A stretch of 64,000 nt of DNA from positions 128,932 to 192,931 of the forward strand of contig NZ_JAKKDU010000002.1 of the NCBI RefSeq assembly GCF_021728535.1, read 5' to 3'. A program made the translations under genes and the position numbers. The stretch comes from Wocania arenilitoris (lineage in GTDB: Bacteria; Bacteroidota; Bacteroidia; Flavobacteriales; Flavobacteriaceae). The notes under the pieces were generated by a model, which worked only from the letters and a program-made list of their open reading frames with translations, made no database searches and had not been told where the DNA came from. Shown here piece by piece: positions 4,441 through 37,008 of the stretch (position 1 is the first letter of the stretch; every line of letters begins with the position of its first letter).

Positions 4441-4528
4441 TTTTTTTAAAAAAAAGCATAAAAAATTTGGTTTATAACTTTTTCTGAACGAATATTTGTA
4501 TTCAGAAAGTTCAATAACTTATTGAAAT

Positions 4529-4644
4529 GTTATCAAGAAAGGTGGAGGGATTAGACCCGGTGAAACCTTAGCAACCCTTTATACATAAAGAAGGTGCTAA
4601 ATTCTACTAAAACTACTAATTATTTAGTGTTTCAGATAGATAAC
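4529..4644 (+). promoter_or_regulatory. SAM-I (S-box) riboswitch upstream of metY
   Basis: The conserved S-box core is readable. P1 is closed by GTTATC (4529-4534) pairing with GATAAC (4639-4644). Inside are AGAAAGGTGGAGGGA, the GACCCGGTGAAACC block, TTAGCAACC and GAAGGTGCTAAATTC, all hallmarks of the aptamer. It lies about 120 bp before metY. SAM binding is expected to lower expression of the metY, metX-thrA and metZ unit. A near twin sits at 21091. Confidence 0.96.
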
Positions 4645-4647
4645 CCA

Positions 4648-4766: not shown

Positions 4767-6041
4767 ATGAGTACACAAAAATTAGCAACAAACGCATTAC
4801 ATGCTGGACACGACGTAACTGCCAATGCAGGAACTAGAGCAGTGCCAATTTACCAAACTACATCGTATGTTTTTAATAATTCAGACCATGCAGCAAATCT
4901 ATTTTCTTTGCAAGAATTGGGTTTTATTTACACGCGTTTAAACAATCCAACCAATCAAATTTTACAAGACCGTTTAGCTGCTTTAGAAGGAGGTGTTGGC
5001 GCCGTAGTTTTTGCTTCAGGAACATCGGCAATTTCAACCGGATTATTAACATTATTAAAGGCTGGAGACCATATAGTAGCATCTAGTAGTTTGTATGGTG
5101 GAACCTACAATTTATTAAGTGTTACCTTGCCAAGATTAGGTATTACAACAACATTTGTTGATGCATCTAATCCAGAAAATTTTGCAAATGCAGTACAAGA
5201 TAATACAAGAGCATTTTTTGCAGAGTCTTTAGGAAATCCTAAGTTAGATGTATTGGATTTAGAAGCAATTTCTGCACACTCAAAAGCAGCTGACGTGCCT
5301 TTTATTGTTGATAATACAGTAGCAACTCCTGCATTATTAAACCCTTTAAAGCATGGGGCTAACATAGTAATTCATTCTTTAACTAAATATATTGGCGGTC
5401 AAGGTACATCTATTGGAGGTGCTATTATTGATGGTGGTACTTTTGACTGGTCTAACGGAAAATTCCCAGAATTCACAGAGCCATCAGCTGGTTACCATGG
5501 ATTAAAATATTACGAAACTTTAGGTGCAGCATCATATACTTTTAAATTAATTTTAGAAGGTTTAAGAGATTTTGGAGGAGCATTAAGCCCAACAAATGCA
5601 TTTAATATTATTCAAGGATTAGAAACGTTATCTGTAAGAATAAAACAACATTCAGAAAATGCATTGGCATTGGCTAAATGGTTAGAACAACAAGACGAAG
5701 TTGCTTGGGTAAACTACCCCGGTTTAGAGTCTAGCAAGTATAAAAAACTTGCTGATAAATATTTGCCTAAGGGGCAAAGTGGTATTGTAACCTTTGGACA
5801 TAAAGGAGGTTTTGATGCGGCTAAAAAAATAGCTGATAACACCAAATTATTTTCTTTACTTGCTAATATTGGAGATACGAAATCGCTAATTATTCATCCA
5901 GCAAGTACCACGCATCAACAATTAGATGAGGCTGAACAAGCATCTGCGGGTGTATCTTCAGATTTAATCAGATTATCAGTAGGTATTGAAGATATTGATG
6001 ATTTAAAAGATGATTTAATAGCCGCTTTTAAAACTATTTAG
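4767..6041 (+). CDS. metY: O-acetylhomoserine sulfhydrylase (aminocarboxypropyltransferase)
   Basis: MetY is a PLP enzyme of the Cys/Met metabolism family that makes homocysteine from O-acetylhomoserine and sulfide. The 424-residue length matches the long MetY type rather than the ~390-residue cystathionine synthases. Motifs are RAVPIYQTTSYVF near the N-terminus, YTRLNNPT, the PLP-ring stacking SSLYGGTYNLL, the DNTVATP segment and the lysine at residue 207 in HSLTKYIGGQGTS, which binds PLP. The C-terminus has IHPASTTHQQL. It is the first gene after the SAM riboswitch and is followed 14 bp later by the MetX fusion that supplies its substrate. Confidence 0.94.
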   Translation: MSTQKLATNALHAGHDVTANAGTRAVPIYQTTSYVFNNSDHAANLFSLQELGFIYTRLNNPTNQILQDRLAALEGGVGAVVFASGTSAISTGLLTLLKAGDHIVASSSLYGGTYNLLSVTLPRLGITTTFVDASNPENFANAVQDNTRAFFAESLGNPKLDVLDLEAISAHSKAADVPFIVDNTVATPALLNPLKHGANIVIHSLTKYIGGQGTSIGGAIIDGGTFDWSNGKFPEFTEPSAGYHGLKYYETLGAASYTFKLILEGLRDFGGALSPTNAFNIIQGLETLSVRIKQHSENALALAKWLEQQDEVAWVNYPGLESSKYKKLADKYLPKGQSGIVTFGHKGGFDAAKKIADNTKLFSLLANIGDTKSLIIHPASTTHQQLDEAEQASAGVSSDLIRLSVGIEDIDDLKDDLIAAFKTI

Positions 6042-6055
6042 TAATACGTTTTCAA

Positions 6056-9000
6056 TTGAAAAATTCGCTATCACATATTAATATTTCAAGCTTTATAACC
6101 GAAAGTAAAGTTAGTATTCCTGAAATAAACTTAAGCTATCAAGTATTTGGTAAGCCATTGGGTTCAGCACCAATAGTTTTAGTAAATCATGCTTTAACAG
6201 GGAATAGTAATGTTACTGGGAAAGATGGTTGGTGGAAAGATTTAATAGGTGATAACAAAGTAATCGATACAAAATTATATTCTGTTTTAGCATTTAATAT
6301 TCCAGGGAATGGGTTTGATGGTTATACTATTGAAAATTATAAAGATTTTGTAGCAAGAGATGTCGCAAATCTGTTTTTGTTGGGCCTAGAAAGCTTACAT
6401 ATAGAAAAACTGTTTGCAGTAATTGGAGGTTCTTTAGGCGGTGGTATTGCTTGGGAAATGGCAGCCATTAAACCAGATTTTACGGAACATTTAATACCTG
6501 TAGCAACCGATTGGAAATCGACAGATTGGTTAATTGCAAATTGTCAAATTCAGGAGCAATTTTTGTTAAATTCTAAAAATCCAGTACACGATGCTAGAAT
6601 GCACGCCATGTTGTGTTACCGTACTCCAGAATCTTTTAAGGAACGTTTCCATCGTTCAAAAAATGACGATTTAGAAATTTTTAATGTCGAAAGTTGGTTG
6701 CTGCATCATGGTAACAAATTGCAAAAGCGTTTTCAACTTTCGGCTTATAAGTTGATGAATCAGTTGCTTAAAACAATTGATGTTACAAAAAACAGAAAAA
6801 ACGATTTTAATGTTTTAGAAAACATAAAAGCGAATATTCATATTATTGGTGTCGATTCCGATTTGTTTTTTACTGCCGAAGAAAACAGGCAAACTCATAA
6901 ACAGCTTGCAGTTACCCACCCTAATGTAACGTATAATGAAATAAACTCGGTACATGGGCACGATGCATTTTTAATTGAATATGAACAATTAGAAAAAATA
7001 ATAGAAGGCATTTTTGTGCCAAATTCTAAAAAAAGGAAAATGAAAGTATTAAAGTTTGGAGGGAAATCTTTAGCAAACGGAGAAGGATTAAATAGAGTGC
7101 TTTCCATCATTGAAAATAAAGTAAAAGCTAACGAAAATATTGCTGTTGTGGTTTCAGCAAGAGGCAATGCTACAGATGATTTAGAAACTATTTTAAATAA
7201 AACCTTAAAAGGTGAAGATTATAAGGGATTATTACAAATATTTAAAGAGTATCAAAAAGCGCCTTTAAAAACTATTGATTTTTCTGAAGAATTTTTAATT
7301 CTTGACAAACTATTTGAAGGTGTAAGTTTGTTACGAGATTATAGTAAAAAAACCAAGGACGAAATTTTAGCACAAGGCGAATTACTATCGGCTAAATTAG
7401 TGGCAGCTTTATTAAAAGAAAGAGATGTAAAAGCCAAAGTAACAGATTCAAGAAAATTAATAAAAACCGATGATAATTTTGGTAACGCACAACCAATCTC
7501 TCAACAAACAAAAGATAACGTTAGAAATTATTTTAAACAAAATGATGGGAATACGGTTAATATAGTAACAGGTTTTATCGCTTCAAACTCTAAAGGAGAA
7601 ACCACAACTTTAGGCAGAAATGGCAGTAATTATTCGGCAGCCTTATTAGCAAATCATTTAGACGCAGACGAACTTCAAAACTATACCCATGTAAGCGGTA
7701 TTTATACGGCAAACCCAGATTTGGTTGCCGATGCTCAAAAAATTAGAGCATTGTCATTTAGTGAGGCAAACGAATTGGCAAACTTTGGCACCACTGTTTT
7801 ACACGCCAAAACCATCATTCCTTTAGTCGAAAAAAACATCAGCCTTCGTATTTTAAATACCTTTAATTCGGATGATGAAGGTACTTTAATTACTGCAAAA
7901 CCAAGCTCTAAGGAAGTTACGTCGTTATCAGTTTTAGATAATGTAGCGTTGTTAAACTTAGAAGGTCGCGGATTATTGGGTAAAATTGGTGTCGATGCAA
8001 GAATTTTTAGAGCATTAAGCGATCATGGTATTAGTGTAAGTATCATTTCTCAAGGTTCTTCAGAAAGAGGTATTGGGTTAATCATAGATGCAGAAAAAGC
8101 AACCCAAGCCGTAATTGCTTTAGAACGGGAATTCGAAAATGATTTTTACTCACAAGACGTTAATAAAATTGAAGTGATTGATGACGTATCAGTTATTTCT
8201 ATAATTGGTATTGCCTTAAGTTCGTTTCATAAACCATTTAATGCCCTAATTAAAAACCAAATTACACCGTTGTTATTTAACAATACGGTTACTGGTAGAA
8301 ATGTGAGTTTGGTGGTTAAAAAAGACCAGTTGCACAAAGCTGTTAATGTAATTCATGGTGAGGTTTTTGGAATTTCAAAAAAGATAAACATAGCCATTTT
8401 TGGTCATGGAGGTGTTGGTGGTGCTTTGATAAATCAGATTTTAAAGTCTAAAGACGAGATTGAAAAACGCAAGGGCATTAATCTAAATGTGTTTGCTATT
8501 GCAAATTCTAGAAAACTAATTTTAAATAAAAATGGAGTTGATGAGAATTGGGAAGATGATTTAGAAACAGCGTTACAAGAAAGTTCAATTGAATCAATTA
8601 TCGCTTTCGCAGAAACACATCATTTAGAAAATTTAATTGCGGTTGATAATACAGCAAGTTCAGATTTTTATCAAAATTACATAGCCCTAGTTGAAGCAGG
8701 ATTCGATTTGGTTTCTTCAAACAAAATAGCCAATACCATTTCTCACGATTTTTATACCAGTTTAAGAGATTATTTAAAAGAGCACAATAAGCAGTATTTA
8801 TACGAAACAACTGTTGGTGCGGGCTTACCCTTAATTGATACCATTAAATTATTGCACGAATCTGGAGAAAACATTACTAGAATTAGAGGTGTGTTTTCGG
8901 GTACGTTGAGTTATTTGTTTAATAACTTTTCTGTTGAAGATAAACCGTTTAGTAAAATCATTCAAGAAACCATAGATAAAGGTTTTACCGAACCAGACCC

Positions 9001-9457
9001 AAGAGAAGATTTTTCAGGAAATGATGTGGCAAGAAAGTTATTGATCTTGGCTAGAGAATTAGATTTACAAAATGAATTTGAAGATGTTATGGTACAAAAT
9101 TTAATACCAGAAACGTATCAAAATATTTCTGTGAAATCCTTTTTAAATCAATTGGATGTTTTAGATGAACAATATCAAAAGATAAAAGAAGAACAAGCTG
9201 AAGGATACGTATTGCGATATGTTGGTGACTTATCGGGCGATTTATCGCAAGACAAAGGCAACCTTGAAGTTAAATTAGTATCTATTCCAGAAGATAGTAC
9301 GCTAGGACATGTTAAAGGAAGTGATGCCATTTTTGAGATTTTTACAGAATCTTATGGCGAGCAACCCATAGTTATTCAAGGCGCAGGTGCAGGAGCAGAA
9401 GTAACTGCACGTGGTGTTTTTGGTGATATTTTGAGATTATCAAAACATATTAATTAA
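6056..9457 (+). CDS. Trifunctional fusion: homoserine O-acetyltransferase / aspartate kinase / homoserine dehydrogenase
   Basis: One uninterrupted 1133-codon frame joins three enzymes. Residues 1-320 are MetX, an alpha/beta hydrolase with nucleophile Ser126 in GGSLGG, Asp269 and His302 (GHDAFL) as the likely triad. Residues 329-770 are aspartokinase, opening MKVLKFGGKS, with ACT-type segments after ~620. Residues 778-1133 are homoserine dehydrogenase, with FGHGGVGG for NAD(P), TVGAGLPLIDT, FTEPDPREDFSG and the C-terminal GAGAGAEVTARGVFGDI. The start must be the TTG at 6056, because the first internal Met is residue 135, inside MetX. Codon 329 is an ATG preceded by AAAAGGAAA, so a separate ThrA might also be initiated internally. 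It converts aspartate towards O-acetylhomoserine for metY upstream and metZ downstream. Confidence 0.92.
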   Translation: MKNSLSHINISSFITESKVSIPEINLSYQVFGKPLGSAPIVLVNHALTGNSNVTGKDGWWKDLIGDNKVIDTKLYSVLAFNIPGNGFDGYTIENYKDFVARDVANLFLLGLESLHIEKLFAVIGGSLGGGIAWEMAAIKPDFTEHLIPVATDWKSTDWLIANCQIQEQFLLNSKNPVHDARMHAMLCYRTPESFKERFHRSKNDDLEIFNVESWLLHHGNKLQKRFQLSAYKLMNQLLKTIDVTKNRKNDFNVLENIKANIHIIGVDSDLFFTAEENRQTHKQLAVTHPNVTYNEINSVHGHDAFLIEYEQLEKIIEGIFVPNSKKRKMKVLKFGGKSLANGEGLNRVLSIIENKVKANENIAVVVSARGNATDDLETILNKTLKGEDYKGLLQIFKEYQKAPLKTIDFSEEFLILDKLFEGVSLLRDYSKKTKDEILAQGELLSAKLVAALLKERDVKAKVTDSRKLIKTDDNFGNAQPISQQTKDNVRNYFKQNDGNTVNIVTGFIASNSKGETTTLGRNGSNYSAALLANHLDADELQNYTHVSGIYTANPDLVADAQKIRALSFSEANELANFGTTVLHAKTIIPLVEKNISLRILNTFNSDDEGTLITAKPSSKEVTSLSVLDNVALLNLEGRGLLGKIGVDARIFRALSDHGISVSIISQGSSERGIGLIIDAEKATQAVIALEREFENDFYSQDVNKIEVIDDVSVISIIGIALSSFHKPFNALIKNQITPLLFNNTVTGRNVSLVVKKDQLHKAVNVIHGEVFGISKKINIAIFGHGGVGGALINQILKSKDEIEKRKGINLNVFAIANSRKLILNKNGVDENWEDDLETALQESSIESIIAFAETHHLENLIAVDNTASSDFYQNYIALVEAGFDLVSSNKIANTISHDFYTSLRDYLKEHNKQYLYETTVGAGLPLIDTIKLLHESGENITRIRGVFSGTLSYLFNNFSVEDKPFSKIIQETIDKGFTEPDPREDFSGNDVARKLLILARELDLQNEFEDVMVQNLIPETYQNISVKSFLNQLDVLDEQYQKIKEEQAEGYVLRYVGDLSGDLSQDKGNLEVKLVSIPEDSTLGHVKGSDAIFEIFTESYGEQPIVIQGAGAGAEVTARGVFGDILRLSKHIN

Positions 9458-21062: not shown

Positions 21063-21090
21063 TTCGCTAGTTCATAAACGTATTAATAAT

Positions 21091-21201
21091 GTTATCAAGA
21101 AAGGTAGAGGGACTAGACCCGTTGAAACCTTGGCAACCCTTTATCTTGTAAAGAAGGTGCTAAATTCTACTAATAATTTAATTGGTTATTGGAAAGATAA
21201 C
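21091..21201 (+). promoter_or_regulatory. SAM-I (S-box) riboswitch upstream of split metH
   Basis: GTTATC (21091-21096) and GATAAC (21196-21201) form P1. The conserved blocks AGAAAGGTAGAGGGA, GACCCGTTGAAACC, TTGGCAACC and GAAGGTGCTAAATTC match the S-box core and nearly repeat those at 4529. After P1, GAAAAGT (21203-21209) and ACTTTTC can form an AT-rich hairpin, a possible platform. It should lower the metH genes when SAM is high. Confidence 0.96.
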
Positions 21202-21256
21202 GAAAAGTGTTTCTTTTACTTTTCTTGACGACATACAGATATAAATTATCAAAAAA

Positions 21257-22270
21257 ATGTCAAACATACAACAGGCTTTAAAAAAACGAATTTTAGTGTT
21301 AGATGGCGCAATGGGTACCATGTTACAAGCCTATAAATTCACTGAAGAAGATTTTAGGGGAGAACGCTTTAAAGACTATCCAACACCTTTACAGGGTAAC
21401 AACGATTTGTTATCTATTACACAGCCAGAAGCTATAAAAACCATCCACGGAAAATATTTTGAAGCTGGAGCAGATATTGTTGAAACCAATACATTTTCTG
21501 GAACAACAATTGCTATGGCAGATTATCAAATGGAAGATTTGGTATATGAATTAAACTACAAGTCGGCTAAAATAGCAAAAGAAGTTGCTGTTGAGTTTAC
21601 AAAAAAAGAACCGCATAAACCCAGATTTGTAGCAGGTTCTATTGGGCCAACAAACCGTACAGCCAGTATGTCGCCAGATGTAAACGACCCAGGGTATAGA
21701 GCCGTAACTTTTGATGAATTACGTATTGCATACAAACAACAAGTAGAAGCTTTAGTCGATGGAGGTGTAGATTTATTATTAGTTGAAACTGTATTTGATA
21801 CACTTAATGCAAAAGCAGCTTTATTTGCTATAGAAGAAGTTAAAGAAGAAAGAAACATAGATATTCCAATCATGCTAAGTGGTACAATTACAGATGCATC
21901 AGGTAGAACCTTGTCAGGGCAAACAGCCGAAGCATTTTTAATTTCGGTATCGCATATACCATTATTATCAATAGGGTTTAATTGTGCTTTAGGAGCTAAT
22001 TTATTGCAACCACATTTAGAAGCTATTGCCAATAAAACAGATTTTGCTATTTCTGCACATCCAAATGCAGGTTTACCAAATGCGTTTGGCGAATACGACG
22101 AAACTCCAGAAGAAATGGGTGAGCAAATTGAAGAATATTTAAAGAAAAATTTAATAAATATTATTGGTGGTTGTTGTGGTACAAGTCCAAAACATATAAA
22201 AGTTATTGCAGATATAGCGACTAAATACAAACCAAGAAATCATACTAGACCTGTTTCTGCATTACATTAA
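21257..22270 (+). CDS. metH: Methionine synthase, homocysteine-binding domain (split MetH, part 1)
   Basis: This 337-residue protein is the first domain of cobalamin-dependent methionine synthase as a separate polypeptide. It opens KKRILVLDGAMGTMLQAYKFTEEDFRGERF and has the zinc-binding cysteines in SIGFNCALG and IIGGCCGTSPKHI, which activate homocysteine. The rest of MetH is encoded at 22557, with a small ABM-fold gene between. It is the first gene after the SAM riboswitch and 5 bp before that small gene, so the three should be one transcript. Confidence 0.95.
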   Translation: MSNIQQALKKRILVLDGAMGTMLQAYKFTEEDFRGERFKDYPTPLQGNNDLLSITQPEAIKTIHGKYFEAGADIVETNTFSGTTIAMADYQMEDLVYELNYKSAKIAKEVAVEFTKKEPHKPRFVAGSIGPTNRTASMSPDVNDPGYRAVTFDELRIAYKQQVEALVDGGVDLLLVETVFDTLNAKAALFAIEEVKEERNIDIPIMLSGTITDASGRTLSGQTAEAFLISVSHIPLLSIGFNCALGANLLQPHLEAIANKTDFAISAHPNAGLPNAFGEYDETPEEMGEQIEEYLKKNLINIIGGCCGTSPKHIKVIADIATKYKPRNHTRPVSALH

Positions 22271-29439: not shown

Positions 29440-31530
29440 TTAAAGGTCTTGGGCTTGTATAGCGGTTATTATAACGGTGCTATAAATATCGTCGGCAGTA
29501 CAACCACGACTTAAATCGTTTACAGGTTTATTAAGACCTTGTAGCATGGGACCAATAGCCAATGCACCAGTTTCTCGTTGTACCGCTTTATACGTATTAT
29601 TTCCAGTGTTTAAATCAGGGAAAATAAACACAGTTGCTTGTCCTGCAACATCAGAATTTGGTAGCTTACTTTTTCCAATGCGCATATCTACAGCCGCATC
29701 GTATTGAATTGGTCCTTCAATTTTTAAATCAGGTACTTGCGCTTTAGCAATTTCGGTGGCTTTTCTAACTTTATCAACATCTTCACCTTTGCCAGAGGCT
29801 CCAGAAGAATACGATAGCATAGCTACTTTTGGCTCAACTCCAAAATTTTGAGCTGTTTTTGCTGATGAAATAGCAATTTCTGCTAATTGTTCTGCATTTG
29901 GGTTTGGGTTAATAGCACAATCGCCAAAAATAGATACACGATCTTCTAAACACATAAAGAAAACAGAAGATACGATGTTAACATCAGGCTTTGTTTTTAT
30001 AAACTGTAAAGCAGGACGTAAAGTGTGGGCTGTAGTATGTACTGCGCCAGAAACCATACCGTCTGCATGGCCTTTGTAAATCATCATGGTAGCAAAATAC
30101 GAAACATCAGTCATCGCATCTTTTGCTATATCTAAGGTGATGTTTTTATGTTTTCTAAGCTCATAAAATGTGTTTACATAATCCTCAAAATGAGGAGATT
30201 TAATAGGGGAAACAATGTTTATGTCATCAATATTTAAAGCAATATCAAATTTTTCTAAACGCTCTTTTATTTTTTCTTTTTCACCAATTAAAGTAATATC
30301 AACCACATGAGCATCAATTAGTCTTGCTGTGGCACGCAGCACACGTTCATCATAACCTTCAGGCAGTACAATGTGTTTTTTATCTTTTAAGGCACGTTGT
30401 AATAAATTGTACTGAAACATTCTTGGAGTAAAAATATCTGATTTAAAAGTAATTAAGTCATTTGATAATTTATCAGTGTCTACATGCTTTTCAAAGGCTG
30501 CTATTGATGATGTAATTTTGTCAACATTTTCAGCATATATTTTAGGTTTTATTTTGCCAATAGTATTTGTTACTTGAAATGTACCTTCTTTAACGCTAAT
30601 TATTGGTACAACACTAGACAATCCTTCTATTAATTTTAAAATAGAATCTTCTGGAATTAATCCACCAGTTAAAATAATTCCAGATATTTTTGGGTAATTT
30701 TTAGAAATATTGGCTTGTAATGCTCCTAAAATAATATCGGCTCTATCACCAGGAGTAATTACTAAAGCATTTTCTTTTAAATGTGTTAGGTAATTACGCA
30801 ATTGCATTGCACCAACACTAAAATTGTCTATTTGATTGTTAATTAGGTCTTTACAAAAAAGCACGTTGCCGTCTAATATTTTAAGAACTTCTTTTAATGT
30901 AGGGTTTGCTAAACTTTTTATTTTAGGAATAACACTAATATCTGTACCACTGTTAATACGGGTTTTTAATTGAGTTTTTAATTTGGTAATATAGTCTGGA
31001 TTAATTTTGTTGGTAATTATTGATAACACATCAACTTCTTCTTTAAAAGTATCGTATGATAATTGAACATTATCAACAATTTCGTTTACTTCCTTTTTAT
31101 CGCCTTGCGATACAATAATAACAGGTAAGCCTAAGTTTTTAGAAATTAAAATATTAATATCTAACTCTAAACTAGAATTTTCATGAGAGAAATCGGTGCC
31201 TTCAACAAGTATAATATCAAATTTTTCTTCCAGATATTTATATTTTTTAATAATTTCATCAATAACATCGCCAGATTTTCCTTGGTTGTATAAATCGAGT
31301 ACTTGGTTACGAGTGTAAGCGAAAGTTTTTTTGTAGTTGATATCGATATCAAAATGCGACATCACAGTATTAATATGATTATCCATTTCGCCATCTTCGA
31401 TATCTTCAATTATAGGTCTAAAATAACCTACTTTTGCAGTTTTTCCTAAAAGCATACGCATTAACCCAAGTACAACAACAGATTTTCCACTGTTAGGCTC
31501 AATTGTAGCTACATAAATTCCTTTACTCAT
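29440..31530 (-). CDS. pta: Phosphate acetyltransferase, long form
   Basis: Pta converts acetyl-CoA and phosphate to acetyl phosphate. The 696-residue product is the long form: an N-terminal P-loop dethiobiotin synthetase-like region (IYVATIEPNSGKSVVVLGLMR), a central DRTGG domain (about residues 215-330) and a C-terminal catalytic domain from about 380 (HIVLPEGYDERVLRATARLID, GMVSGAVHTTAHTLRPALQ, the MLSYSSGASGKGEDVDKVR block). A -10-like TATCTTTG lies at 31560-31553 in front of it. It forms an operon with ackA. Confidence 0.97.
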   Translation of the reverse strand: MSKGIYVATIEPNSGKSVVVLGLMRMLLGKTAKVGYFRPIIEDIEDGEMDNHINTVMSHFDIDINYKKTFAYTRNQVLDLYNQGKSGDVIDEIIKKYKYLEEKFDIILVEGTDFSHENSSLELDINILISKNLGLPVIIVSQGDKKEVNEIVDNVQLSYDTFKEEVDVLSIITNKINPDYITKLKTQLKTRINSGTDISVIPKIKSLANPTLKEVLKILDGNVLFCKDLINNQIDNFSVGAMQLRNYLTHLKENALVITPGDRADIILGALQANISKNYPKISGIILTGGLIPEDSILKLIEGLSSVVPIISVKEGTFQVTNTIGKIKPKIYAENVDKITSSIAAFEKHVDTDKLSNDLITFKSDIFTPRMFQYNLLQRALKDKKHIVLPEGYDERVLRATARLIDAHVVDITLIGEKEKIKERLEKFDIALNIDDINIVSPIKSPHFEDYVNTFYELRKHKNITLDIAKDAMTDVSYFATMMIYKGHADGMVSGAVHTTAHTLRPALQFIKTKPDVNIVSSVFFMCLEDRVSIFGDCAINPNPNAEQLAEIAISSAKTAQNFGVEPKVAMLSYSSGASGKGEDVDKVRKATEIAKAQVPDLKIEGPIQYDAAVDMRIGKSKLPNSDVAGQATVFIFPDLNTGNNTYKAVQRETGALAIGPMLQGLNKPVNDLSRGCTADDIYSTVIITAIQAQDL

Positions 31531-31552
31531 TTATTGATTAATTTTTGCGTTA

Positions 31553-31560
31553 CAAAGATA
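31553..31560 (-). promoter_or_regulatory. Promoter -10 box for pta-ackA
   Basis: Read on the minus strand this is TATCTTTG, an exact TAnnTTTG, 22 bp before the pta start. A -35 TTG is not evident. Confidence 0.45.
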
Positions 31561-31721
31561 GAGTATTGCTTGCTTTTGTAAAGATGATATTTGTCATGGT
31601 TTCGCAATATTATACCATTTCTTATTTGAAATAATCGTAATAAAGCACCCTTTTTTTATTTCTACCTCAATAGAAAAAGAAACCATAAGGCTATGCTTTA
31701 TGTTTTGTGTAACTCTTAAAT

Positions 31722-32618
31722 CTAATCTGAAGTTAACTCCCTAAATAAACTCTCTAAACTCGCATTCTTTTGATTGAGTTGAAGAATTTTTAATTGATTG
31801 TCGTGTGCAAAATCAAAGACATAAGACCGCATGTCTTCAGTGGTTTTAAACGTAATTTCGTAAACAAAATCATGCGTATTTACAACCTTCTCTACTTTAG
31901 TGAGTTTTAATAAAAAGGCATCTTCAACACGGTAATCAAACTCCACAATAACAGTTTGTTCTGTACCTTCACGTAGTTCTTTTAGCTTTTTATCGGCAAC
32001 AATTTTACCTTTATTAATAATAATAACGCGGTCGCACATAGCTTCAACTTCTTGCATAATGTGTGTAGATAAAAACACGGTTTTTGTTTTGCCAATATTT
32101 TTAATAAGATTTCTAATATCTATGAGCTGATTGGGGTCTAAACCTGTTGTGGGTTCGTCTAAAATTAAAACATCAGGATTGTGCAGTAATGCATTGGCTA
32201 AGCCTACCCGTTGTCTATACCCTTTTGAGAGTTGCCCAATTCTTTTATGTGCCTCGGGCGTTAAACCAGTAAGTTTAATAACTTTTTCAATACGTGTTTT
32301 GGGTGTTTTGTAAATATTTGCGTTAAAGTTTAAATATTCTTTTACATACATATCTAAATACAAGGGGTTGTGTTCTGGCAAATAGCCAACACTTTGTTGT
32401 ACGTTTTTCAGGTTCTCATTTACATCAAATCCATTTACCTTAGCAACACCATTTGTAGCATTAATACAAGTGGTTAAAATTTTCATCATAGTCGATTTTC
32501 CAGCACCATTAGGTCCTAGAAAACCAACAATTTCTGGTTTTTCAACTTTAAAAGAAATATTCTTTAATACTTTTTGATTTCCGTAAAGCTTCGAAATTCC
32601 TTCAACTTCAATAGACAT
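31722..32618 (-). CDS. gldA: Gliding motility ABC transporter ATP-binding subunit
   Basis: The 298-residue ATPase has Walker A GFLGPNGAGKST, the Q-loop region GYLPEHNPLYLDMYV, signature LSKGYRQRVGLANAL, Walker B VLILDEPTTGLDPN and the switch histidine in FLSTHIMQEVEAMCD. Its length and the C-terminal extension of about 90 residues match GldA, which with GldF and GldG forms a transporter required for gliding in Flavobacterium. gldF and gldG are not in the window, as is usual for the separate gldA locus. It is divergent from the aromatic amino acid operon. Confidence 0.88.
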   Translation of the reverse strand: MSIEVEGISKLYGNQKVLKNISFKVEKPEIVGFLGPNGAGKSTMMKILTTCINATNGVAKVNGFDVNENLKNVQQSVGYLPEHNPLYLDMYVKEYLNFNANIYKTPKTRIEKVIKLTGLTPEAHKRIGQLSKGYRQRVGLANALLHNPDVLILDEPTTGLDPNQLIDIRNLIKNIGKTKTVFLSTHIMQEVEAMCDRVIIINKGKIVADKKLKELREGTEQTVIVEFDYRVEDAFLLKLTKVEKVVNTHDFVYEITFKTTEDMRSYVFDFAHDNQLKILQLNQKNASLESLFRELTSD

Positions 32619-32635
32619 ATTTAAAATAGTTTCTT

Positions 32636-32643
32636 CAAAAATA
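32636..32643 (-). promoter_or_regulatory. Promoter -10 box for gldA
   Basis: On the minus strand this reads TATTTTTG, an exact TAnnTTTG, 17 bp before the gldA start codon. Confidence 0.4.
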
Positions 32644-32724
32644 ATAATTATATAATGTAAAGCTTAGTTTGCTATAAATTCTTTAAAACTATTAATAAAA
32701 TTTAAAAAAACATTATTTAGTATT

Positions 32725-32753
32725 TTGATTTCTTGAAATATTATTTAATTTAG
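32725..32753 (+). promoter_or_regulatory. Promoter of the aromatic amino acid operon
   Basis: TTG (32725-32727), an 18-bp spacer, then TAATTTAG (32746-32753) fit the flavobacterial TTG-N17-23-TAnnTTTG promoter with one mismatch. Transcription would start a few bases before the leader-peptide ATG at 32764. Confidence 0.45.
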
Positions 32754-32763
32754 CCACTTAATT

Positions 32764-32847
32764 ATGACAATGACAGTATTTTATACATATTTTAACAATT
32801 GGTTTTATTTCTTTTTTAGTAAAAGAAACGAGGCGTTGTATGTATAA
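32764..32847 (+). CDS. Aromatic amino acid leader peptide (attenuator)
   Basis: A 27-codon ORF, ATG to TAA, precedes the pheA operon. Residues 5-18 read VFYTYFNNWFYFFF, so the peptide contains six Phe, four Tyr and one Trp. It lies between a plausible promoter and a hairpin followed by seven T. A segment in its codons 22-24, CGAGGC (32829-32834), can pair with GTCTCG (32873-32878), the left arm of that hairpin. Stalling at the Phe/Tyr codons would leave CGAGGC free and break the terminator; completion of translation would cover it and allow termination. It is a leader peptide with no expected function as a protein. Confidence 0.75.
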   Translation: MTMTVFYTYFNNWFYFFFSKRNEALYV

Positions 32848-32872
32848 TTTATAACTATAAATTTTAATATGA

Positions 32873-32899
32873 GTCTCGATGAAAATCGGGACTTTTTTT
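32873..32899 (+). terminator. Attenuator terminator upstream of pheA
   Basis: GTCTCGAT (32873-32880) pairs with ATCGGGAC (32885-32892) in an 8-bp stem with one G-T pair and a GAAA tetraloop, followed by seven T. It lies 5 bp before the pheA ATG, so it can only act as a regulated terminator of this operon. Confidence 0.8.
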
Positions 32900-32903
32900 A
32901 TAT

Positions 32904-33731
32904 ATGATTAAAACAGTAGCAATACAAGGTGTTAAAGGATCGTTCCACCACATTGTTTCTCAAGAGTTTTTTGAGAGGCATGTTAATGCTATTGAATGTT
33001 TAACTTTTGATAGAGTAGTAGATTCTTTAATTTTAAAAGAATGTGATGCCGCGATTATGGCTTTAGAGAATTCTATAGCAGGCTCCATTATTCCTAACTA
33101 TGCGTTAATTGATAATAAGGATTTGCATATAGTTGGTGAGCATTATTTAGATATTCAGCACAATTTAATGGCACTTAAAAACCAAAGTATTAAAGCTGTT
33201 AAAGAAGTATATTCGCACCCCATGGCACTGCTGCAGTGTAAAGAGTTTTTTAAGAAACATCCACATATAAAATTAATTGAAGACAAAGATACTGCTGAGG
33301 TCGCACAGCGTATAAACGAAAAACAATTAAAAGGTGTTGGTGCCATAGCTAGTGTTATGGCTGCTGAAATTTTCGAACTAGATATTTTAGCACATAGCAT
33401 ACAAACTATTAAACACAACGAAACAAGGTTTGCTATTGTTAAACGAACAAATTCTGAAGTGCCAGAAAATGAAATTAATAAAGCCTCAATAAAATTTGAA
33501 GCTAACCATAAACGTGGCAGTTTAGCAACTATTTTAAATGTGATGAGTGATTGTAAGTTGAATTTAACAAAAATTCAATCCTTACCAATTATTGAAACAC
33601 CATGGAAATATGCCTTTTTTGTTGATGTTACTTTTGAGGATTTATCAAATTTTAAAAAAGCAAAGGCATTAATAGAAATTATGGCTGATAATTTTAAAGT
33701 TTTAGGCGAATATAAAAATGCAAAGTTATGA
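32904..33731 (+). CDS. pheA: Prephenate dehydratase
   Basis: This 275-residue enzyme converts prephenate to phenylpyruvate for phenylalanine synthesis. The catalytic domain (1-180) has VAIQGVKGSFHHIVSQEFF, CDAAIMALENSIAGSI and the substrate-binding segment that ends NETRFAIV. The C-terminal ACT domain (about 195-275) has KRGSLATILNVMSDCKLNLTKIQSLPI; the ESRP motif that binds Phe in other enzymes reads QSLP here, so feedback control may differ. There is no N-terminal chorismate mutase; that activity is fused to DAHP synthase at the end of the operon. Its stop overlaps the next gene's start by 4 bp. Confidence 0.94.
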   Translation: MIKTVAIQGVKGSFHHIVSQEFFERHVNAIECLTFDRVVDSLILKECDAAIMALENSIAGSIIPNYALIDNKDLHIVGEHYLDIQHNLMALKNQSIKAVKEVYSHPMALLQCKEFFKKHPHIKLIEDKDTAEVAQRINEKQLKGVGAIASVMAAEIFELDILAHSIQTIKHNETRFAIVKRTNSEVPENEINKASIKFEANHKRGSLATILNVMSDCKLNLTKIQSLPIIETPWKYAFFVDVTFEDLSNFKKAKALIEIMADNFKVLGEYKNAKL

Positions 33732-34873
33732 TTGAAGTTGCTAAACGATTGCATAGCGTTGAAGAATACTACTTCTCAAAAAAATTAAGAGAGGTTAATA
33801 AACTTATTGCAAGTGGTAAGCCTATTATTAACTTAGCTATTGGTAGCCCTGATTTGCAACCACCTCAAAAAGTAATTAAAGCTTTAACTGATGGGTTACA
33901 AAAACCTAACGCACATAAATATCAAAGCTATCAAGGGCTTCCTGAATTAAGAGAAGCTATTACTAGCTTTTATAAAATGCATTTTTCGGTTAACTTAAAT
34001 GCTAATACAGAGGTGCTTCCGTTAATGGGAAGTAAGGAGGGGATTATGCATATTTCTATGACCTACTTAAATGAAGGTGATGAGGTTTTAATACCAAACC
34101 CAGGATATCCAACTTACCAATCGGTTACAAAATTAGTTGGTGCAAACCCTCTTTTTTACGAGTTAGACGCCGCCAATAATTGGTTGCCAGATTTAAAAAG
34201 TTTAGAGAAAACAGATTTAACTAAAGTAAAATTGATGTGGATAAATTATCCGCACATGCCAACTGGTGCGAAGTCAACTAAATATTTATTTGAAGAATTA
34301 GTAGTCTTTGCAAAACGCCATAATATTTTAATTGTAAATGATAATCCGTATAGTTTTATACTAAACGATTCACCTCAAAGCATATTAAGTGTAAAAGGGG
34401 CAAAAGAGGTGTGTTTAGAGCTTAACTCGTTAAGTAAAACGTTTAATATGGCAGGTTGGCGTGTAGGTATGGTACTTGGAGATGGCATACATATTAATAA
34501 TATTTTAAAGGTTAAAACTAATATGGATTCTGGGATGTTTTATGGTATTCAAAGAGGGGCTATTGAAGCTTTAAAATGTTCAAAAATGTGGTTTAGTACA
34601 CTAAATAGTGTTTACCAGCAACGTAGAAAATTAGTTTGGCAATTGGCAGATGCTTTAAATTGTACTTACAATAAAAATGCTACAGGACTTTTTGTTTGGG
34701 CAAAATTACCAGCTAATGTTACATCCGAAGAGTTTATAGATTTAATATTAAAAGAGAATCATATTTTTATTACCCCAGGCACTATTTTTGGTAGTCAAGG
34801 CGAAGGTTATATTAGGTTTTCTTTATGTGCATCAAATGAGGTTTTAGAAGAAGCCATAACAAGATTGAGATAG
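33728..34873 (+). CDS. Class I/II PLP aminotransferase, probably aromatic or aspartate type
   Basis: The 381-residue protein is a fold-type I aminotransferase. It has NLAIGSPDLQPP near residue 38, YQSYQGLPELREAI, the NPGYPTYQS and NDNPYS segments, the PLP lysine in LNSLSKTFNMAGWRVG and a C-terminal YIRFSLCAS. Its position between pheA and tyrA, overlapping pheA by 4 bp (ATGA), suggests it transaminates phenylpyruvate and 4-hydroxyphenylpyruvate to Phe and Tyr. Related enzymes act on aspartate, LL-diaminopimelate or alanine, so the substrate is an inference from context. Confidence 0.88.
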   Translation: MIEVAKRLHSVEEYYFSKKLREVNKLIASGKPIINLAIGSPDLQPPQKVIKALTDGLQKPNAHKYQSYQGLPELREAITSFYKMHFSVNLNANTEVLPLMGSKEGIMHISMTYLNEGDEVLIPNPGYPTYQSVTKLVGANPLFYELDAANNWLPDLKSLEKTDLTKVKLMWINYPHMPTGAKSTKYLFEELVVFAKRHNILIVNDNPYSFILNDSPQSILSVKGAKEVCLELNSLSKTFNMAGWRVGMVLGDGIHINNILKVKTNMDSGMFYGIQRGAIEALKCSKMWFSTLNSVYQQRRKLVWQLADALNCTYNKNATGLFVWAKLPANVTSEEFIDLILKENHIFITPGTIFGSQGEGYIRFSLCASNEVLEEAITRLR

Positions 34874-34982: not shown

Positions 34983-35834
34983 ATGAAAAATATATACATA
35001 ATAGGTGTTGGTTTAATTGGTGGTAGTCTTGCTATTGATATTAAAAAGAATAATCCAGATGTTGTTATTCATGGTATTAGCAGAAAAGATACAACATTAA
35101 ACCAGGCATTATCACTTAATTTAATTGATAAAAAAGCCACTTTAGATGATATTGAAAATGCAGATTTGGTTATTGTTTCAATTCCAGTTGATGCCACAGT
35201 AAAATTATTACCATCTATTCTAGATAAAATTTCAGATAATGGATTGGTTGTAGATGCAGGATCAACCAAAGTAGATATTTGTAAAGCAGTTGAAAATCAT
35301 CCAAAAAGAAGAAATTTTTTAGCAATGCATCCTATTGCAGGTACAGAGCATTCTGGACCAAGTGCAGCAATTCCAAATTTATTTATTGGTAAAACAAATA
35401 TTATATGCGAAGTTGAAAAAACAGCTTTTAAACTTCAAGAAAAAGCATTAAAACTGTTTGCCGATGTTGGTATGCGTATGCGCTACATGAATCCAGAAGC
35501 ACACGATAAACATATTGCTTATATGTCGCATTTATCACATATTAGTTCATTTATGTTAGGCAAAACGGTTATAGAAAAAGAAAAAAACGAGCGCGATATT
35601 TTTGATATGGCTGGTAGTGGATTTGAATCAACCGTTCGTTTAGCCAAAAGCTCTCCAGAAATGTGGACGCCTATTTTTAAGCAAAATAAAACCAATGTTA
35701 TAGAAACATTAGAAGAATATATTTCAAATCTCACACAATTTAAAGAGTTAATGAAACAAGATAATTTTGATGCAGTTTTTAAAGAAATGAAAGATACCAA
35801 TCACATAAAAGACATTTTAAAAGGAATAAATTAA
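34983..35834 (+). CDS. tyrA: Prephenate dehydrogenase
   Basis: TyrA oxidatively decarboxylates prephenate to 4-hydroxyphenylpyruvate for tyrosine synthesis. The 283-residue product begins with the NAD-binding IIGVGLIGGSLAIDIKK, and carries the VVDAGSTK, MHPIAGTEHSGP and HDKHIAYMSHLSHISSF motifs, including the catalytic-site histidines. It has no fused chorismate mutase or ACT domain, in agreement with its length. The start is the ATG behind the hairpin repeat, and it is followed 91 bp later by DAHP synthase. Confidence 0.95.
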   Translation: MKNIYIIGVGLIGGSLAIDIKKNNPDVVIHGISRKDTTLNQALSLNLIDKKATLDDIENADLVIVSIPVDATVKLLPSILDKISDNGLVVDAGSTKVDICKAVENHPKRRNFLAMHPIAGTEHSGPSAAIPNLFIGKTNIICEVEKTAFKLQEKALKLFADVGMRMRYMNPEAHDKHIAYMSHLSHISSFMLGKTVIEKEKNERDIFDMAGSGFESTVRLAKSSPEMWTPIFKQNKTNVIETLEEYISNLTQFKELMKQDNFDAVFKEMKDTNHIKDILKGIN

Positions 35835-35925: not shown

Positions 35926-37008
35926 ATGGAAAACAAAAAAGAAATGAGAGCGTGGTTAGATGCTATGAATTTAGATCACCCATTAGTAGTAGCAGGACCA
36001 TGTAGTGCTGAAACAGAAGAACAAGTTTTAAAAATAGCACACGAGTTAAAAGATACCGATGTAAGCTATTTTAGAGCTGGTATATGGAAACCAAGAACGC
36101 GTCCTGGGAATTTTGAAGGTGTTGGTGCCTTAGGACTTAAATGGTTACAGAAAGTTAAGGAAGAAACAGGCATGAAAGTATGTACTGAAGTTGCCAATGC
36201 AGCGCATGTAAAGTTAGCTTTAGAACATGATATTGATATGCTTTGGATTGGAGCGCGATCAACAGTTTCTCCTTTTATAATGCAAGAAATTGCAGATGCC
36301 TTACAAGGTACAGACAAGCCAGTTTTAATTAAAAACCCAGTAAATCCAGATTTATCATTATGGCTGGGTGGTATTGAAAGAATTTACAGTTCTGGAGTTA
36401 AAAATATAGGTGCTATTCATAGAGGATTTTCAACTTACGAAAAAACAAAATACAGAAACAAACCAAAATGGCAAATGGCAATTGAGTTTCAAAACAGATT
36501 TCCAGATATTCCATTAATTAATGATCCGTCGCATATTACTGGAAACAGAGATATGATTTTTGATGTATCTCAAACTGCACTGGATTTAAATTTTGATGGA
36601 TTAATGATTGAAACACATACAGATCCAGATAAAGCATGGAGCGATGCTGCGCAACAGGTAACACCATCTACTTTGATTCAGATTATGAGAGATTTAAAGA
36701 TTAGAAAAGAAACTGATGCCGAAGCGGAGTACCAAACAGCATTAAATAATTTAAGAGCTAAAATAGATGTTATAGATAATCAAATTATAGGATTGCTAGG
36801 TAATCGTATGCTTGCATCAGATGGAATAGGCGCTCTTAAAAAGAAAAAAAATGTTGCCGTTTTACAAAGCAAGCGTTGGAATGAAATTTTAGGTAAAATG
36901 GTTTTAGAAGGTCAAGAACATGGATTAAGTGAAGAATTTATTTTAAAAATGTTTAAAGCTATTCACCAAGAATCCATTAATCATCAAGAAAAGATAATTA
37001 ATGGATAA
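35926..37008 (+). CDS. Bifunctional DAHP synthase / chorismate mutase
   Basis: One polypeptide of 360 residues joins the first and the branch-point steps of aromatic synthesis. Residues 1-260 are a type I-beta (KDO8PS-like) DAHP synthase with VVAGPCSAETEEQ, FRAGIWKPRTRPGNFEG, IHRGFSTYEKTKYRNKP and NDPSHITGNRD. Residues 270-360 form an AroQ chorismate mutase helix bundle (LNNLRAKIDVIDNQIIGLLGNRM, KMFKAIHQESI). This fusion is typical of Bacteroidota. It closes the pheA-aminotransferase-tyrA operon and supplies the prephenate its neighbours use. Confidence 0.95.
   Translation: MENKKEMRAWLDAMNLDHPLVVAGPCSAETEEQVLKIAHELKDTDVSYFRAGIWKPRTRPGNFEGVGALGLKWLQKVKEETGMKVCTEVANAAHVKLALEHDIDMLWIGARSTVSPFIMQEIADALQGTDKPVLIKNPVNPDLSLWLGGIERIYSSGVKNIGAIHRGFSTYEKTKYRNKPKWQMAIEFQNRFPDIPLINDPSHITGNRDMIFDVSQTALDLNFDGLMIETHTDPDKAWSDAAQQVTPSTLIQIMRDLKIRKETDAEAEYQTALNNLRAKIDVIDNQIIGLLGNRMLASDGIGALKKKKNVAVLQSKRWNEILGKMVLEGQEHGLSEEFILKMFKAIHQESINHQEKIING

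Follow-up and report, generated by a model that had tools for sequence, protein, structure and literature searches.

A conserved leader upstream of pheA in Bacteroidia with the features of a ribosome-mediated attenuator

The aromatic amino acid operon of the window, by which we mean the whole 64,000-nt stretch analysed (part of a 3.49 Mb genome), is preceded by a short leader that most probably (roughly 0.9) controls it as a ribosome-mediated transcription attenuator of the trp/phe/his kind. The best reading is that it senses mainly the charging of the Phe and Tyr tRNAs. Its anatomy, conservation, covarying alternative pairings, spacing and codon pattern were established by computation, and the mechanism is deduced from comparison and geometry. 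Ribosome stalling had been proposed in the first-pass annotation, and conserved pairing, geometry, codon pattern and a codon content that tracks the controlled gene all argue for it.

All elements of the leader lie on the forward strand. A promoter-like TTG-N18-TAATTTAG of the Bacteroidota primary sigma type (32725–32753; TTG at 32725–32727, TAATTTAG at 32746–32753) is followed by an ORF of 27 codons (32764–32847) encoding the putative leader peptide MTMTVFYTYFNNWFYFFFSKRNEALYV, with six Phe, four Tyr and one Trp codons and an aromatic run at 32779–32817. Region 2, CGAGGC (32829–32834), lies within leader codons 22–24. Its partner, region 3, GTCTCG (32873–32878), is common to the antiterminator and to the left arm of the predicted intrinsic terminator GAGTCTCGAT-GAAA-ATCGGGACTT (32871–32899), which has its GAAA loop at 32881–32884 and seven T at 32893–32899. 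A region 1:2 hairpin (32802–32834) is suggested by the predicted fold and might sequester region 2 when no ribosome is present. Promoter, ORF, hairpin and the two complementary motifs are thus where the first-pass annotation had put them; only the gap between the T run and the pheA ATG (32904) needed correction, from five bases to four. The terminator sits between the leader ORF and pheA, the first structural gene, and since the upstream gene (31722–32618) is divergent it belongs to the operon's own leader.

The promoter motif recurs in relatives: 72 of 96 family loci have TTG-N16-22-TAnnTT(A/T)G no more than 75 nt from the leader ATG, where shuffles expect 1.5. The TAnnTTTG box is placed at −12 to −5 in Flavobacterium psychrophilum in the passages cited here (PMC9723704). 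If it is positioned likewise in the window, transcription would start near 32758, giving a leader 5′ UTR of about 6 nt; the mean mRNA leader length given for F. johnsoniae in the part of PMC6847099 cited is 33 nt.

Downstream, again on the forward strand, lie pheA (prephenate dehydratase; 32904–33731), a class I/II aminotransferase gene (33728–34873), tyrA (prephenate dehydrogenase; 34983–35834) and a DAHP synthase gene with a chorismate mutase domain (35926–37008). The main domains of all four proteins score above the Pfam cut-offs, the ACT domain of PheA scores below, and tyrA is the only one of the four to pass an NCBIfam equivalog cut-off. This gene order is kept in 79 of 80 named contigs, the remaining one ending at the contig edge.

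The leader ORF stands out from its surroundings. Among the 407 ATG ORFs of 15–45 codons on both strands of the window, none is as dense in aromatic codons (10 of 14; runner-up 8 of 14), and an ORF with at least 9 aromatic codons in 14 arose in one of 3,000 dinucleotide shuffles of 32641–32870. The predicted fold of the leader RNA beats 200 of 200 shuffles (z −3.77). A scan of 31500–34000 against 4,227 Rfam families at E values up to 5 gave three matches, all far under their own gathering scores, and assigned the pheA leader to no family; no Rfam amino acid leader or T-box family matches it, including the covariance model for Bacteroid-trp RNA (RF01692). At gathering scores the whole window holds two SAM riboswitches (RF00162) only, at 4527–4646 and 21089–21203 (77 and 87 bits). 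These precede, respectively, an O-acetylhomoserine sulfhydrylase-like gene (4767–6041) and a gene matching the first part of the methionine synthase MetH (21257–22270). An ORF of 1,133 codons (6056–9457) is an apparent MetX-ThrA fusion: its first 320 residues resemble the homoserine O-acetyltransferase MetX (below cut-off) and the remainder matches bifunctional aspartate kinase/homoserine dehydrogenase.

The window's family is very probably Flavobacteriaceae, the name borne by most of the best 80 of 574 named contigs, and 226 of 249 genomes of that family have a PheA match. We read 152 regions upstream of pheA: 97 from the same family (the source genome, three of its genus, the 28 best-scoring, and 60 plus 5 hand-picked lower in the lists) and 55 hand-picked outside it, of which 15 belong to the rest of the order, 20 to the rest of the class and 20 to other classes in the phylum. 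A script seeking an aromatic-rich ATG ORF followed by a terminator found the leader in 124 of the 152, and reading further upstream added one more (L067, genome G015). The leader with its terminator hence precedes pheA in 97/97 loci of the family, 7/15 of other families of the order, 17/20 of the wider class and 4/20 of other classes. The set of 80 named contigs, whose species overlap with the main set, gave the same picture (79 by script, one by eye). In L067 repeats separate the leader from pheA, which begins about 510 nt further on, and in a Gelidibacter locus (L206) the leader is likewise far upstream; in both (about 4090–4500 in L206) repeated copies of an element with ATGAGTTCGAAGAACGAAATAAAATGAACTAGTTGAACTAATCCCGCC lie between attenuator and pheA.

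No leader was found in 27 of the 152 pheA loci. Sixteen of these are from other classes. The others comprise one locus (L108) from a family in which two other members read have the leader, the sole locus read of family f12 (L109), two 0.6 Mb genomes of one family (f16; L112, L113), four loci of family f5 (L117–L120) whose PheA is 27–32% identical, and three of one genus (L123–L125) in which pheA appears directly behind another ORF. In the four leader-bearing loci from other classes (L143–L146), PheA is 42–44% identical to the query, closer than in the 16 others read; the leader may have moved into these classes together with the operon. In three loci (L264–L266), two of them in genomes from the same class-level family and the third in one from a different family, pheA is preceded by two aromatic leaders with terminators in series, one terminator each in L264 and L265 being judged by eye.

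A covariance model built from 66 hand-picked members of the 96 script-found family leaders matches 82 of 100 family genomes at E≤0.001. Counted per genome, wherever the match lies, this amounts to 79/84 genomes with PheA and 3/16 without, the last three being two leaders of other aromatic genes and one bare terminator. The model gave a second match in seven genomes. Six of these, and the match in G056 (L254–L260; E 2e-4 to 9e-4), are terminators lacking an aromatic-rich ATG ORF and were set aside, as was a second DNA match in the source genome (L002), an apparent coding sequence on the opposite strand that we took as chance. The seventh genome, with 6% contamination (G050), has two strong matches, at C240:8625–8757 (E 2e-16) and C91:1–127, only one of which adjoins its PheA match.

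Codon usage in the leaders points to a translated frame. Counted over the final codon of the aromatic run and the seven before it, family leaders contain 290 TTT, 122 TTC, no TTA and one TTG, and the other leaders 75 TTT, 29 TTC and neither TTA nor TTG. Third-position changes that keep Phe are therefore common and those that give Leu nearly absent, a pattern to be read with the caution that leaders were picked by aromatic density. The mean content is 5.2 Phe, 3.9 Tyr and 0.6 Trp codons (n=124). The first-pass annotation had suggested that one peptide senses general aromatic supply. The leaders bear this out only in part: Phe and Tyr codons occur in 124/124 of them, Trp codons in 74/124.

The alternative pairings are conserved and covary. 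For each of the 124 leaders we took as region 2 the best ungapped pairing between the left arm of the terminator and up to 40 nt past the aromatic run, the run being defined as at least four aromatic codons in seven so that a later lone Tyr is excluded. The mean region 2:3 score is 17.3 in the family (n=96; 11.4 in shuffles, 11.5 in upstream control windows) and 21.2 in the other leaders (n=28; 12.6 and 11.3). Individually, only 68/96 family leaders beat their own shuffles at p<0.05, as do 25/28 of the others. Regions 2, 3 and 4 change together between clades, examples of region 2/3 being CGAGAC/GTCTCG, CGGGAC/GTCCCG, GAGCGGTC/GACCGCTC and GCCGGGACT/AGTCCCGGC, as well as CAGGATTGT/ACAATCCTG, paired by eye, in Flavobacterium denitrificans (L227). 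Cognate regions 2 and 3 outscore non-cognate ones in 2,228 of 2,550 comparisons across 51 distinct region-3 types.

Column-by-column counts on an alignment of 66 family leaders (MAFFT, not structure-fitted) agree with this. Antiterminator pairs are formed in 87.6% of cells, against 49.4% in the best slid version. Four of the six pairs changed on both sides, and there are 18 such cells against 5.1 in shuffles, where the leaders share kinship and the changes are non-independent events. The remaining two pairs deviate only through unpaired cells, at least partly from rows that MAFFT set off by one. Further pair types in the antiterminator are no more numerous than in shuffles (7 against 6.1; 153 of 500). 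The terminator is paired in 97.7% of cells, with 16 both-side changes against 2.1 in shuffles. Alignment upstream of pheA in relatives, the check that the first-pass annotation had proposed, thus finds the leader ORF and the CGAGGC/GTCTCG pairing conserved and covarying. In the absence of a ribosome, region 2 is predicted to pair upstream more than with shuffled upstream sequence in 113/124 leaders (mean 0.68 against 0.45), and the 1:2 helices exceed column shuffles in cells paired. The covariation of this hairpin is no better than that of slid versions (partner moved two columns), and because these covary equally we rate the 1:2 helices as weak.

The spacing of these regions fits a ribosome. 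Region 2 starts a median of 11 nt past the aromatic run, and 6–12 nt past it in 119/124 leaders. The 3′ edge of the E. coli ribosome falls 15 nt downstream of the first P-codon base. With this footprint, and with the last codon of the run in the A site of the stalled ribosome, region 2 is modelled to start −2 to +4 nt from the ribosome edge in 107/124 leaders; it starts beyond the edge in 81, and in 43 the modelled ribosome overlaps the first 1–8 nt of the pairing. In 110/124 leaders, half or more of region 2 would be hidden under a ribosome at the stop codon (none of it in 7/124), and in 124/124 that ribosome would stay at least 8 nt short of region 3. With the ribosome stalled and region 4 not yet made, the predicted probability of the 2:3 pairing exceeds 0.5 in 119/124 leaders, a count that benefits from having selected the best-scoring pairing; for a ribosome at the stop codon, the probability of the terminator does so in all 124. 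After region 4 has been made, even a stalled ribosome leaves the terminator dominant at equilibrium (median probability of 2:3 pairing 0.008). The terminator being so much the more stable, kinetic control by a coupled ribosome must be assumed.

We infer from these data that the leader is translated, that transcription can terminate before pheA and that the outcome responds to amino acid supply. RNA polymerase would start about 6 nt before the leader ATG. When charged tRNA-Phe and tRNA-Tyr are ample, the ribosome would reach the leader stop codon and cover region 2; regions 3 and 4 would then pair and stop transcription behind the T run, immediately ahead of pheA. When either tRNA is short (or that for Trp, where its codons are present), the ribosome would stall in the aromatic run, leaving region 2 free to pair with region 3 before region 4 is made, and the operon would be read through. 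If the leader is not translated, upstream sequence may sequester region 2 and so favour the terminator.

Codon content appears to follow the gene that is controlled. Twenty-three family genomes, some incomplete, have no PheA match; 17 of these have a DAHP synthase, and with the best locus of each read and one (L290) lacking upstream sequence, 16 loci were readable. Eight (L274–L280, L282) have a short leader with Trp codons and a terminator before the DAHP synthase gene, seven of them with adjacent Trp codons (for example MTNNNTWWSNSKFYLKR and MFRVITHLVSCNWWLQLKNCR) and one (L280) with a single Trp codon, identified by eye. Completeness is 99% or more for seven of these eight genomes. As a background value, two adjacent Trp occur in 18 of 4,239 ATG ORFs of 12–25 codons from the named loci. 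The other readable loci comprise one directly behind tyrA and seven without a terminator. Of 199 genomes, with and without PheA alike, seven gave a phenylalanine 4-hydroxylase match; a Tyr-rich leader and terminator precede the gene in three of the seven (L252/L267, L268 and L273), the other four having none; these leaders are MKNLNNTYYYYPILTRRIGQ in G044, a GTG start followed by INTNIYYYYYPLLNFRIG in G176, and MKTNRIYTIYMYTFYHRWRAR in G091. Nine of the Trp and Tyr leaders have a region 2-like pairing at 8–32 nt, as raw values without shuffle control.

Comparable leaders precede other amino acid genes of the source genome. One with MNTILNNTWWWHFRN and a terminator, before a trpE-like ORF (gene name by eye), is a Bacteroid-trp RNA, and RF01692 matches 17/21 family genomes (14 over cut-off) and 8/25 in a hand-picked mixed set (6 over cut-off). 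A leader with His codons, MNITQIHHHFCICSQAK (1186–1239 of L250), precedes hisG with a terminator identified by eye. A leader was also looked for before ilvD and none was seen.

Three other explanations were weighed. The leader peptide itself might arrest the ribosome, as a TnaC-like nascent-peptide sensor of a free aromatic amino acid. Within the family the peptide is indeed conserved beyond its aromatic residues, with N or W at set places and an SKRNEALYV-like tail, but that tail overlaps region 2, and across the class only the aromatic run is kept while the order and spacing of Phe and Tyr vary. The Trp and Tyr leaders of other genes likewise have no common motif outside the Trp or Tyr run (by eye), and we regard peptide arrest as improbable.

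Slightly less probable still is an incidental ORF, with the terminator under the control of a metabolite-binding riboswitch or another structured RNA. Such an RNA would be in keeping with the very high conservation of nucleotides among close relatives and with a fold better than shuffles. Against it, the Rfam scan gave no match, RNAalifold on the 66 aligned sequences finds the terminator only, and the leaders of distant relatives have no common aptamer-like sequence (by eye); variation between TTT and TTC with Leu codons almost absent is also hard to reconcile with an incidental ORF. Least probable of the three is that the terminator merely ends an upstream transcript or acts as a constant, unregulated brake, as the upstream gene is divergent and region 2 both covaries with region 3 and keeps a narrow spacing to the aromatic run. 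Attenuation by a stalled ribosome is thus the reading that we retain.

Amino acid leader peptides are textbook regulation in Proteobacteria, where enterobacterial pheA and pheST have leader-peptide attenuators. These resemble the element described here in having a Phe-rich leader ORF, an alternative antiterminator and an intrinsic terminator before the prephenate dehydratase gene. The present leaders differ in mixing Phe with Tyr and often Trp codons, and their operon also includes tyrA and DAHP synthase. Bacteroid-trp RNA, present in the same genome, shares the general design, whereas it has Trp codons and a different operon, and its model misses the pheA leader; it is listed in the part of PMC2864571 cited.

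For F. psychrophilum (PMC9723704; passages cited), 64 structured 5′ regions were described, with strong hints that amino acid operons are preceded by leader-peptide attenuators. Also reported there are elements upstream of pheA and hisG that are conserved in other Flavobacteriaceae genera and have no Rfam match. The structured pheA 5′ element is very probably the same as ours. Its anatomy is absent from the main text as far as cited, and the present analysis adds class-wide spread, covariation, spacing and codon switching. As the first-pass annotation remarked, described cases from Bacteroidota are few in the main texts of the open-licence literature, though the structured pheA element had already been flagged in F. 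psychrophilum in 2021 (PMC9723704). Beyond the passages cited, the main texts of the open-licence PMC literature yielded no dedicated study of the pheA leader. The uORFC-13-1 motif upstream of aroF in Acholeplasma (PMC8632094, as described in the part cited) is alike in that a terminator and a proposed uORF, with one Phe codon or more, precede DAHP synthase, and unlike in its phylum, in concerning aroF only and in its 24 representatives; the likeness is one of description. Small ORFs reminiscent of leader peptides are mentioned for B. thetaiotaomicron in the excerpt cited from PMC7366714. According to the passage cited from a 2010 survey (PMC2965389), amino acid leader peptides had been shown in Proteobacteria and Actinobacteria only, until its own case from Firmicutes. 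We consider it well supported, as far as sequence comparison goes, that the pheA attenuator is of a known type, real and conserved, lacks an Rfam family and was not wholly unknown before; what is new, as far as the open-licence main texts show, is the mechanism-level evidence and the class-wide range.

An old design turns up repeatedly in a bacterial class from which it had hardly been known. The covarying pairings, together with natural codon swaps, make the sensed amino acid predictable from sequence, and the element is a candidate Rfam family. We lean, by a small degree, towards a broader account: that aromatic synthesis is under the control of one attenuator design, which is ancestral in class Bacteroidia, has at times moved with its operon to other classes and is re-tuned through codon swaps when pathways change. 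Its codons would be Phe/Tyr(/Trp) before the full pheA operon, Trp before DAHP synthase where pheA is missing and Tyr before phenylalanine hydroxylase, and in some genomes two such attenuators would stand in series. Bacteroidota ribosomes are reported, in the passages cited, not to use Shine-Dalgarno sequences (PMC6847099, PMC9976891), and the pheA attenuator offers a ready test of transcription–translation coupling in such a phylum. If a single re-tuned ancestral design does underlie these leaders, termination control by stalled ribosomes, and hence close coupling of transcription and translation, would operate throughout a phylum that does not use Shine-Dalgarno sequences.
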